Source: Thermodesulfobacteriota bacterium
Lineage (GTDB): Bacteria; Desulfobacterota_D; UBA1144; Nemesobacterales; UBA2774
Length of the DNA: 64,000 nucleotides
Direction: 5' to 3'
Assembly (NCBI GenBank): GCA_040754335.1
Contig: JBFMCV010000001.1
Coordinates: 248,001-312,000, forward strand
The position numbers were made by a program, and so were the translations under genes. Every line of letters starts with the position of its first letter. Within the stretch, counting starts at the first letter, position 1. The notes beneath the pieces are model-generated. The model was given only the letters and a program-made list of their open reading frames with translations. It did no database searches and was not told the DNA's origin. This document shows, piece by piece, positions 3,050 through 7,157 of the stretch.

Positions 3050-3583
3050 CTACTCGGGACTTATCTCGTACCACATGTTCGTCTGATAACCCTGCTTGTC
3101 GACTTCCGCGAACGACTTGCCGGCAACCGGGGTTGCGCCGTCGCACTTCCACTCGTATATCGTCGAATGGCCGGTCACGTACATCGGAATGAAATCGGAG
3201 CCCGCGTTTTCCTCGCAGTAATCTTTCATCGCCTGCGTCGGCTCCTTGTTCACGTCCGCCTTTTCCTCGCACGGTATGTTAGCCCCGACGTTGCACGCAT
3301 AGACTTTCCCGTCCATGCAGCGCCAGTACGTCCCCTTGATGAACGTGTCGAGAGGGGCCGACTCGGGCGAGCCCCACGCCTTCTTTAACGCTACCGCTAT
3401 TGATTCGGGCACCGGAGGGCCCGTGTATTCCTTGCCCGGTGTGTCGATCGTGCCGACGTCCTTGCAGTAAGCAAACGGGCTGTCGTAGATCTTTCCGGCG
3501 GTCTCGTCAGCGCCGCATGAAAGCGCGGTCAGGACCGACAGGGCGGGAAGCGTCAAAATTAACAGGATGAAACGGGTTCTCAT
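3050..3583 (-). CDS. Cys-rich exported protein, probable lipoprotein, unknown function
   Basis: 177 aa from the ATG at 3583, chosen over the upstream ATG at 3613 because AAAGGAGAGG directly precedes it. A hydrophobic signal peptide ends in TALSC, an acceptable but not ideal lipobox. The mature part has several cysteines (in YCKD, WRCMDG, ACNVG, PCEEK, YCEEN, WKCDG) that could form disulphides in the periplasm. No enzyme motif is recognised. It is divergent from the six-haem lipoprotein at 3696 with about 110 bp between, so the two may share regulation. Function unknown. Confidence 0.7.
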   Translation of the reverse strand: MRTRFILLILTLPALSVLTALSCGADETAGKIYDSPFAYCKDVGTIDTPGKEYTGPPVPESIAVALKKAWGSPESAPLDTFIKGTYWRCMDGKVYACNVGANIPCEEKADVNKEPTQAMKDYCEENAGSDFIPMYVTGHSTIYEWKCDGATPVAGKSFAEVDKQGYQTNMWYEISPE

Positions 3584-3695
3584 ACTCCTCTCCTTTAAAC
3601 AGGAATGTAACAATTATAACGCAAGCGGCTGACATTCTAAATCGCTGAATGCACTGTCTATCTTATTATTACATACGGCTATATAATTGAACGGC

Positions 3696-6600
3696 ATGAA
3701 GGTAACGGCATTGCATATATACGCTATATCGGTCTGTTTGATAGCGTTGATTGCTTGCGATGAAAGGCACGGCGGAAATACGCTCCCTACCGACCCGAAG
3801 GAATGGGTATGCAAGAACTCCGAGATCGGGCCGACGCCCGAAGAAATAGAGCAGTTCTGTGCCACTGCCGACCGGGGGCTTCCCGCTCCGGATTTTCTCC
3901 GTAACCCCCCTCCTATCTCCCGCCTCGGCGATAAGAACGTCTACGACACCCAGATGCAGGATTTTCTGAGAGCGAAAGGATACGCAGGCGAGCTCGGCTG
4001 GCCGGGCGATTTGAACTGGCGCCTAACAGGCCCCTACGTCGGTCCCATAGGGAGCGGCCAGGCCTACGGCGTTCACCCCGCCGTCAGACTGTATTATTCC
4101 CCGGAACTGATTGAGTGGCTCTGCGGCGGCAGGGAGGGCGAGATCCCCGACGGGGCCGTCATCGTGAAAGAGATGCATTCTATAAACGAGTCCCTCGACA
4201 TATCGATCGACTCCGAAGGTTGCATGGTGATCAACGCCGGCGTCGAGCCCGAGTCCTGGACTATAATGGTAAAGCAGCGGGATGAGGCGTGGGACGGCTG
4301 GTACTGGGGGAATTATATAATTGAATACGACCCGCCCACGTCAAGCTGGCAAGTCGGCAATCCGCCGATCTTCGACATATCCGCCGTCACGAGCGAGGAC
4401 TTCTTCGGCGGCGAGATCACGCCCGCCGAGCCCAACCCGCTATGGTACCCGACGGGTTACGTGTACGAAAGCGGGAACAAGATACCGGACGTCGTTCCTG
4501 CGTCGAGCGACTACGGGAACTACTGTATTAACTGCCACGCATCGGCCGAAAGCGAGCAAACTTTTTCCTCGCTCGACAATTTACTGACACCTGGATTGAG
4601 ATATAAACACTACGGGCCGCTCGAAGCGGACGAGAGCATGGACGGCGGCCTCGATGCAGAGCCGGTCTATATAGCCGGGCGTACCGCGCCCCTTTATATT
4701 AAAAACGGCCTACGGGCTGATGGGGAGGTCGACAATTACGATTCGCCCTTCTCGAAAGCGCTTCCCGAGCCCGCCCCCGGATTCCTCGAATTTTACGACC
4801 AGCTCGGTATGGTGACTTTCCCTGATGTGTGGGATCTCCGCCTGCCAGCGGAAACCTACGACCACATAGTATCAGGAGGCGGCGGACCCCAGGATTTTAT
4901 CACCTCGGACCAGTGCGAGGGGTGCCACGACGCGTCGTTTTCGAACTCATCCATCCCGAACATGATGCTCGAAGTAACGGAGCCCGACGGCACCAAGTAC
5001 GTCAACCTCTCGCCTTACGGCGAGTGGAAAGCCTCGCCGATGGGCCTCGCCGGGCGCGACCCGGTCTTTTTCTCCCAGCTCGAGAGCGAGACGAACAACC
5101 TGCCCGAGTATACGGAGTGTATCGAATCCACGTGCCTTCACTGTCACGGCGTCATGGGGCAGCGCCAGCTCGCTATCGATACGGAGGGTCAGAATGACGG
5201 AGGCTGCAAGAGCCTCTTCGTGATCGAGCCTTCTCCGCAGGTCCCCTTCGGTAAACCTTTCACGCTGGACATGGTAACGAAGTGGCCCGGCTCGGAAGAC
5301 AACGAATTTCAGAATTACGGAGCGCTCGCCAGGGACGGCATATCCTGCAGCGTGTGCCACCATATATCCGAGACGAATCTGGGACGGGAATCCTCATTTA
5401 CCGGGAACTTCGTCACGGGTCCATCTGACGAGGTCTACGGGCCTTACGAAGACTCGACGATAATCCCTAAGCCCATGGACAACGCCCTCGGCATCACTCC
5501 GAAGTTCGCCGATTATTTCGTGAGCGGCGACCCGTTCAGCTCGCATATCTGCGGGAGCTGCCACAATATCCTGCTCCCCGTCTTCAGCAACGAGGGCGAA
5601 ATACTGGGAGCGAGCTACGAGCAGTCCACGAACTTCGAATGGCTGAACAGCCAGTTCGGCACGAGCGGTGAAAACTTCAAATCATGCGCGGACTGCCACA
5701 TGCCCGCTCACTATAAAGGGGAGAAGCTTTCTTTCGAGATAGCTAACATAGAGTCCGACGCGTTCGCCCCCACGACGGACCGTCTGCCCGATGAAGAGAT
5801 CGCCCTTACCGAGCGCGACTACTATGCCCGCCACTCGCTCCACGGGCTCAACGTTTTTCTAAACGAAATGTTCCAGCAGTTCCCCGTCATACTGGGGTAC
5901 CGGCAGATAGGCGTTATGACCGGCACATTCAGCGTGCCGCCGCTCATTACCGGAAGGGACTCGATGGTCGGGATGGCACGGAACGAAACCGCGGAGATCA
6001 GCGTCGAGACCCTCGAGATAACGCCCGCTGGCGAGCTCAGGGCCGTGGTTAAGGTAACGAGCCTTGTGGGACATTATCTCCCGACAGGAGTCGGATTCAG
6101 GCGCATGTTCATCGAGTTCCTCGTCCGCGACGCGGATGGAAATGTGCTATGGGCTTCCGGGCGTACGAACGATCTCGGCGTTCTGCTCAAAGGCACAACG
6201 GACGAGGTGCTTCCAAGCGAAGAGCCGCTCATCAATCCAGACACGTTCCAGCCGCATTACCAGACGATTACGAGCGACAACCAGGTGCAGATATACGAGG
6301 AGGTCGTCGAGGATTCGGACGGAAACGTCACGACGAGCTTCCTCAGGCGTGTAAACGAAGTAAAGGACAACCGCATAAGGCCCAAGGGCGCTGACCCCGA
6401 GTTCTTCGCCAATCCCGCCCTCTCGCCGTATACCCAGCAGCTGGCGGTGCTCCACGGCGAGGAGAGGTTCGACCCCTATTATACAAACACAGCGCTCACG
6501 GGCTCGGACGTTGTAGAATATTTAATCAGCCTCGACATCGAGACCCTCGGCCGTGTGCACGACGTGCAGGTTACGCTCTATTATCAGGCGATCCCGCCTT

Positions 6601-6779
6601 CATATCTCCAGCAGAGGTTCCAGGACGCAAGCGCCGGCCCTGCCGAGAATGACGAGATAAGACGGCTCTACTACATTACGAGCCACCTGAACGTTGACGG
6701 CACCGTCGACGGTGAGGGCGGGCAGGCAATAAAGGACTGGAAACTTTTCCTTGTACGCGTAGTGAAAGCGATCGACTAG
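3696..6779 (+). CDS. Six-haem lipoprotein: cytochrome P460 domain fused to multihaem cytochrome c
   Basis: 1027 aa from ATG 3696; a TTG three codons upstream is possible. The signal peptide ends in the lipobox LIAC (Cys21), so it is predicted to be a lipoprotein. Residues of about 125-300 look like a cytochrome P460 domain: a GAVIVKEMH-type strand, a WDGWYW segment, and the closing CINCH at 277-281. Five more CXXCH sites follow at about 407, 480, 551, 619 and 664. The last 350 residues have no haem motif and look beta-rich. P460 proteins oxidise hydroxylamine or NO in nitrifiers and methane oxidisers, and the haem chain could pass electrons on. The domain fusion is seen; a role in N-oxide or other redox chemistry is inferred. 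No membrane anchor other than lipid is visible. Confidence 0.8.
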   Translation: MKVTALHIYAISVCLIALIACDERHGGNTLPTDPKEWVCKNSEIGPTPEEIEQFCATADRGLPAPDFLRNPPPISRLGDKNVYDTQMQDFLRAKGYAGELGWPGDLNWRLTGPYVGPIGSGQAYGVHPAVRLYYSPELIEWLCGGREGEIPDGAVIVKEMHSINESLDISIDSEGCMVINAGVEPESWTIMVKQRDEAWDGWYWGNYIIEYDPPTSSWQVGNPPIFDISAVTSEDFFGGEITPAEPNPLWYPTGYVYESGNKIPDVVPASSDYGNYCINCHASAESEQTFSSLDNLLTPGLRYKHYGPLEADESMDGGLDAEPVYIAGRTAPLYIKNGLRADGEVDNYDSPFSKALPEPAPGFLEFYDQLGMVTFPDVWDLRLPAETYDHIVSGGGGPQDFITSDQCEGCHDASFSNSSIPNMMLEVTEPDGTKYVNLSPYGEWKASPMGLAGRDPVFFSQLESETNNLPEYTECIESTCLHCHGVMGQRQLAIDTEGQNDGGCKSLFVIEPSPQVPFGKPFTLDMVTKWPGSEDNEFQNYGALARDGISCSVCHHISETNLGRESSFTGNFVTGPSDEVYGPYEDSTIIPKPMDNALGITPKFADYFVSGDPFSSHICGSCHNILLPVFSNEGEILGASYEQSTNFEWLNSQFGTSGENFKSCADCHMPAHYKGEKLSFEIANIESDAFAPTTDRLPDEEIALTERDYYARHSLHGLNVFLNEMFQQFPVILGYRQIGVMTGTFSVPPLITGRDSMVGMARNETAEISVETLEITPAGELRAVVKVTSLVGHYLPTGVGFRRMFIEFLVRDADGNVLWASGRTNDLGVLLKGTTDEVLPSEEPLINPDTFQPHYQTITSDNQVQIYEEVVEDSDGNVTTSFLRRVNEVKDNRIRPKGADPEFFANPALSPYTQQLAVLHGEERFDPYYTNTALTGSDVVEYLISLDIETLGRVHDVQVTLYYQAIPPSYLQQRFQDASAGPAENDEIRRLYYITSHLNVDGTVDGEGGQAIKDWKLFLVRVVKAID

Positions 6780-6809: not shown

Positions 6810-7157
6810 TTGAAAAATAGCGCTACGGGAATTAAGAAAGGCCTGCAGTTCGTCAAAATACCGGCCATAACCCTGCACATTGTTCTCTTCTGGTTTCTGT
6901 CAGGCGGCTGCTCTCCGGGGCCGGACGACCCACGTGAGGACCTTATCGCATATTGTGTCAGGGAATGCGTTATTGAAACATCCGACTCCGAGATATGCGA
7001 TACGCGGTGTAAATGCGCTGTGAAAAATCTCGAAGAAGAGACCACCGCTCAGGAGCTCAGGAAAATAGCAAGCGGAATTACGAAGAACGATGATACTACA
7101 AACGAATTTGTCGTTAAATTCAGGGACGCCTTCAAGAAGTGTACTAGTTTTGAGTAA
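6810..7157 (+). CDS. Small Cys-rich lipoprotein, unknown function
   Basis: 115 aa. The only reasonable start is TTG at 6810, with a weak GGGGTG upstream and no ATG before the signal peptide. The hydrophobic segment ends in LSGGC, a plausible lipobox. The mature part holds a paired cysteine pattern (CVREC, then CDTRCKC) typical of helical hairpins braced by disulphides, followed by a charged helical tail. It starts 30 bp after the six-haem lipoprotein and is probably in the same operon. It could be a partner or chaperone of that protein. This is inferred from position only. Confidence 0.6.
   Translation: MKNSATGIKKGLQFVKIPAITLHIVLFWFLSGGCSPGPDDPREDLIAYCVRECVIETSDSEICDTRCKCAVKNLEEETTAQELRKIASGITKNDDTTNEFVVKFRDAFKKCTSFE

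Follow-up and report, generated by a model that had tools for sequence, protein, structure and literature searches.

A P460/c'-beta-type haem domain fused to a pentahaem cytochrome module in a protein family of Dadabacteria, Myxococcota and Gammaproteobacteria

Characterised cytochromes P460 (PF16694; N. europaea 2je3, M. capsulatus 6hiu, N. sp. AL212 6amg) are small, single-haem proteins. Their haem potentials are very low (about -300 to -424 mV), and Arg44 of the N. europaea enzyme, which is needed for cross-linking, is His in the N. sp. AL212 protein (PMC11928373). NsP460, a natural P460 that lacks the distal carboxylate, is inactive on NH2OH (PMC11928373). Cytochromes c'-beta (7ead, 7s5o) share the fold and have neither the carboxylate nor the lysine. 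The pentahaem cytochrome (PHC) family includes ExtKL and resembles both an archaeal cytochrome nanowire and the T. tepidum protein; cable bacteria possess pentahaem-type cytochromes fused to a truncated haemoglobin (PMC11976967). In this study, we describe a protein in which an N-terminal P460/c'-beta-type domain and a C-terminal PHC module share one chain, an architecture of which sequence, profile and fold evidence leave us in very little doubt. Both parts are known; their combination is absent from the open-access literature that we searched, where we found no P460-multihaem fusion.

The fusion gene and its family

The window is the whole 64,000-nucleotide stretch of contig JBFMCV010000001.1 that was analysed. 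The features of the fusion gene, in window coordinates, are as follows.

3696..6779 (+): fusion gene, one uninterrupted ORF encoding a hexahaem protein of 1,027 aa
3696..3761 (+): signal peptide of the lipoprotein type with lipobox LIAC22 and then Asp-Glu; Cys-Asp also in six other Dadabacteria-order members
4017..4544 (+): P460/c'-beta-type haem domain, residues ~108-283 (PF16694 28.7 bits; hhalign 97%; Foldseek ranks 1-8)
4074..4076 (+): His127, invariant, at the position that Arg44 has in N. europaea P460
4167..4169 (+): Lys158, invariant, aligned with Lys70, which cross-links the haem in N. europaea P460
4260..4262 (+): Thr189 (Thr in 18 members, Ala in 4), aligned with the distal carboxylate Glu96, which is missing here
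4326..4505 (+): insert specific to the family (GNPPI...WYPTG), residues ~211-270, separating the P460 sheet from the haem motif
4524..4538 (+): CINCH, P460-domain haem, kept in 22/22
4863..6776 (+): PHC module with C-terminal domain, residues 390-1027 (5ze8 profile match, E 4.7e-7; Foldseek rank 1; stand-alone and differently fused homologues)
4914..4928 (+): CEGCH, pentahaem module haem 1, 22/22; present in module-only proteins too
5133..5147 (+): CLHCH, module haem 2, conserved in the fusion family and module-only proteins
5346..5360 (+): CSVCH, module haem 3, conserved in the fusion family and module-only proteins
5550..5564 (+): CGSCH, module haem 4, conserved in the fusion family and module-only proteins
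5685..5699 (+): CADCH, module haem 5, conserved in the fusion family and module-only proteins
5832..5834 (+): His713, present in every PHC type compared and a candidate distal haem ligand
5991..6770 (+): C-terminal domain (residues 766-1025), haem-free and mostly beta, with many blocks at pLDDT 70-93
6072..6074 (+): His793, present in every PHC type compared and a candidate distal haem ligand
6255..6257 (+): His854, candidate distal haem ligand, conserved in the fusion family and module-only proteins

The reading frame starts with an ATG at 3696, with another in-frame candidate, TTG, at 3687, and stops at 6777-6779. An earlier note on this DNA had described a single chain with CINCH, five further CXXCH sites and a haem-free C-terminus of about 350 residues, and the 1,027-aa ORF bears this out: it holds six CXXCH motifs (277 CINCH, 407 CEGCH, 480 CLHCH, 551 CSVCH, 619 CGSCH and 664 CADCH), and 359 residues follow the last one. 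A scan of the 1,027 aa found no CX3CH or CX4CH motif. The gene is the single match in its own genome (3.26 Mb, 98% complete). Together with 21 homologues, which are 49-76% identical to the window protein, it forms a family of 22 full-length members. The nearest named match (76%) comes from a Candidatus Dadabacteria MAG, so the window's own genome is probably dadabacterial. All six CXXCH sites are kept in 22/22 members, which places the fusion layout far beyond chance, and the existence of 22 full-length proteins rules out a chance ORF or an assembly artefact.

The carriers are Dadabacteria-order genomes, two "Deltaproteobacteria" MAGs and Gammaproteobacteria (among them Rudaea, Tahibacter, Marinicella and Alcanivoracaceae). 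Judged from these sequences, and with the two MAGs counted as Myxococcota by the label of the tree tool, the fusion protein is conserved across three phyla: Dadabacteria, Myxococcota and Gammaproteobacteria. Two Dadabacteria genomes (G004 and G006) carry two copies each. The full fusion occurs in 2 of 369 sampled gammaproteobacterial genomes and matches to the module part only in 18; nearly all P460 matches in the 369 genomes lie in short stand-alone frames. Two longer P460 frames (L068 and L079) were rejected as other fusions, being GC-rich frame read-throughs with P460 at the very end, and a third (G379) showed no CXXCH frame longer than 150 aa. In a Lysobacteraceae MAG (L036), the fusion gene is spread over two frames, probably by a sequencing frameshift. 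The window's own genome also holds a P460-like lipoprotein frame (L081, G000:C4:8563-8838) that scores 23 bits, below the cut-off, and in which no CXXCH was seen.

The N-terminal domain and its haem pocket

The earlier note had proposed a P460 domain, and several lines of evidence now agree with it. When residues 64-302 were scanned alone, PF16694 was the sole family matched, at 28.7 bits (E 1.9e-6) against a curated cut-off of 27 bits. The match had been expected to reach the first CXXCH; it passes the cut-off and stops at residue 210, about 67 residues short, because of the family-specific insert of about 60 residues. In profile-profile comparison by hhalign, residues 100-300 matched eight P460 sequences at 97% (E 1.2e-10), whereas 30 column shuffles stayed at or below 1.6% and 200-residue pieces from elsewhere in the chain at or below 8.3%. 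A false match driven by CXXCH is ruled out, since residues 100-212, which contain no such motif, still gave 95.5%. The AlphaFold model of residues 64-302 has a mean pLDDT of 62.7, with blocks mostly at 66-91 over its first 140 residues (to about chain residue 203) and poor values beyond. The top eight Foldseek matches of this model in the PDB are all P460 or c'-beta, the first five with probabilities of 0.99-1.00, at low TM-scores. CINCH 277-281 lies near the C-terminal end of the domain in 22/22 members and is aligned by global hhalign.

It might be argued that this resemblance is fortuitous and that the domain is novel. The whole-chain scan reaches only 19 of the required 27 bits, only 5 of the 22 members match PF16694 at E<0.1 (most others fall below the cut-off individually), the insert intervenes ahead of the CXXCH and the model TM-scores are low. 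However, independent profile, controlled profile-profile, fold and key-residue evidence is concordant, and we regard a chance resemblance as highly improbable. We conclude that the N-terminal domain is a P460/c'-beta-type haem domain.

The pocket combines features of both relatives. N. europaea P460 numbering was checked against PDB sequences and the 2025 review (PMC11928373). The fusion protein resembles P460s in the order of its beta-sheet, the position of the cross-link lysine, the His/Arg position 44 and the CXXCH at the domain end. Lys158 aligns with Lys70 and is invariant in 22/22 members, as the earlier note anticipated in looking for a lysine near the haem, and on this alignment it is predicted to be placed to cross-link the P460-domain haem. 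Glu159, His127, Arg131 and Asp200 are likewise invariant. His127 had been considered as a distal cap, an assignment that was dropped because hhalign puts it at the Arg44 position. Unlike characterised P460s, the fusion protein has five more haem sites, an insert ahead of the CXXCH and no distal carboxylate: in 22/22 members the position of this residue (Glu96/Asp102 in NH2OH-oxidising P460s, which depend on it for that reaction) is occupied by Thr or Ala. By eye, stand-alone gammaproteobacterial P460s keep Glu there, so loss of the carboxylate is not general. Its absence is shared with c'-beta; unlike c'-beta, the fusion family has an invariant lysine, which makes its pocket a "halfway house". 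The missing carboxylate renders hydroxylamine oxidase activity of the fusion protein doubtful and weakens the substrate oxidation that the earlier note had envisaged.

The pentahaem module and the cellular setting

The other five haem sites belong to a PHC module similar to T. tepidum c552 and ExtKL. The family profile finds T. tepidum pentahaem c552 (5ze8; E 4.7e-7), mainly through the C-terminal domain, and 5ze8 ranks first in Foldseek for the whole-chain model (E 6.4e-5); this model (mean pLDDT 49.6) is poor where the haems lie. The five CXXCH, a beta-rich C-terminal part and a GHxLP(S/T)G motif are shared with this protein, ExtKL and the sPHC/lPHC of cable bacteria. The fusion family differs from these PHCs in its P460 head, in the extra invariant Cys475/Cys504 and His482/His716, and in scoring 16.2 bits against the NCBIfam ExtKL equivalog (NF040886), far under its cut-off of 250 bits.

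PHC modules without P460 were found in Flavobacteriales, where the tail of one (L039) passes the NCBIfam cut-off for type IX secretion, and in Gammaproteobacteria. Fusion and module-only proteins share the five CXXCH and also H713, H793, H854 and M594, which makes these four residues the best candidates for distal haem ligands. In 3 of the 18 module-only gammaproteobacterial genomes (L057, L058 and L059), the same module follows a different redox-enzyme head, a glucose/sorbosone dehydrogenase (GSDH) domain instead of P460; these proteins also carry F5/8 or PKD domains, and GlyGly-CTERM-like tails end L057 and L058. The lPHCtX protein of cable bacteria is a comparable union of multihaem cytochrome and ligand-binding haem domain, although in other organisms and with a truncated haemoglobin in place of P460 (PMC11976967). 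Given these GSDH and truncated haemoglobin fusions, the PHC module appears to be a chassis for heads that do redox chemistry or bind gas.

The lipid anchor claimed in the earlier note is present in the window protein (LIAC22) and in Dadabacteria, and perhaps also in one Myxococcota member (L022); the other members have ordinary signal peptides. Asp occupies position +2 of the lipobox in all seven Dadabacteria-order members. In E. coli, Asp at this position of a lipoprotein favours retention in the inner membrane, and by analogy the lipid-anchored Dadabacteria-order members would favour that location. Six non-haem cysteines (C39, C55, C143, C176, C475 and C504) are invariant in the family, which suggests putative disulphides and hence an oxidising compartment. 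No neighbour family is common to at least three fusion loci, and no porin was found among the six Pfam-scanned neighbours in the window, in contrast to an MtrCAB-like extracellular conduit. Two small neighbours are lipoprotein-like ORFs with no Pfam family: a Cys-containing one at 3050-3613 (-), with a similar ORF near the fusion gene of L004, and a Cys-rich one at 6810-7157 (+), 30 bases downstream of the fusion gene. Electron export to the outside, the other half of the function first proposed, is not supported, given the Asp at +2 in Dadabacteria-order members, the ordinary signal peptides in nearly all others and the lack of a conserved neighbour or a scanned porin.

Direction of electron flow and possible substrates

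We lean, by a modest degree, towards a cell-envelope protein in which a P460-type head for small-molecule redox chemistry is wired to the PHC module as electron acceptor, with flow from the P460 haem to the module. The c-type haem would be held at CINCH 277-281 with Lys158 positioned for the cross-link. In the periplasm, this open, low-potential haem would bind, and probably oxidise, a small nitrogen compound such as NH2OH or NO, and the electrons would enter the built-in five-haem chain directly, with no separate cytochrome. Because the distal carboxylate is absent, the chemistry probably differs from the NH2OH-to-N2O conversion by N. europaea P460, or relies on a different proton acceptor. 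Flow into the module is the most likely direction because PHC modules are repeatedly joined to heads that do redox chemistry or bind gas and because P460 potentials are very low; since T. tepidum c552 is itself low-potential (PMC11976967), a downhill path from P460 to PHC is an assumption. The fold models are of low confidence around the haem motifs, so that the path between haems and the placing of Lys158 at its haem are predictions from sequence.

Also counting against this mechanism are the loss of the distal carboxylate in 22/22 members, with the carboxylate-free NsP460 inactive on NH2OH, the presence of AMO in only 1 of 11 carriers and the lack of a conserved neighbour gene. No AMO was found in the own genome, and its absence from 10 of the 11 leaves no obvious source of hydroxylamine. 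Nitrogen-oxide chemistry is plausible in the own genome, which encodes an HAO-like multihaem protein (L077:1504-3297:-; G000:C2, about 483500-485300) that has nine CXXCH and, at its N-terminus, a cytochrome c domain. Its closest PDB relative is 6h5l, and in the alignment the position of the NeHAO cross-link Tyr seems to be Trp, which suggests a reductive-type protein.

A rival reading is a reductase or detoxifier, in which the pentahaem chain would feed electrons to the P460-type haem for the reduction of NO, hydroxylamine or peroxide. A pocket without the carboxylate, such as gas-binding c'-beta and inactive P460s also have (PMC11928373), the lack of AMO in 10 of 11 carriers and the low potential described for T. 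tepidum c552 would all suit such a role. Electron delivery from many c haems to a P460 haem would nevertheless be uphill, and some gammaproteobacterial PHC modules are paired with dehydrogenase-type heads, so we consider this direction rather unlikely.

A further possibility is a gas trap, a sensor or a plain electron-transfer protein, whose P460 domain would only bind NO, as in c'-beta, or be structural while the six haems conduct. The absence of conserved partner genes is consistent with this, as is a paralogue (L082; G064:C310, reverse strand) with six CXXCH, a P460-like head and the same layout. By eye its head appears to lack the cross-link lysine (IVALQ in place of IVKEM), so that a head can persist without the cross-link, and L082 is possibly a c'-beta version of the fusion. 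Five invariant residues, Lys158 among them, are however more than a purely structural domain would be expected to need, and we judge a trap, sensor or conductor to be unlikely.

Returning to flow from the P460 haem into the module, we tentatively put forward a bolder form: a Lys-cross-linked, carboxylate-free P460 haem and a nanowire-related pentahaem module might together make a self-contained oxidase of reactive nitrogen species, working by a route unlike known P460 in non-nitrifying bacteria of three phyla and passing its electrons on directly. P460s have been studied as makers of NO and N2O, and a natural multihaem fusion fixes both the partner for electron transfer and the route. With this family, P460 joins truncated haemoglobin and GSDH among the heads on the pentahaem chassis. 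Its halfway-house pocket, with lysine present and carboxylate absent, occurs naturally in culturable strains of Marinicella, Rudaea and Tahibacter, which makes the role of such pockets directly testable.
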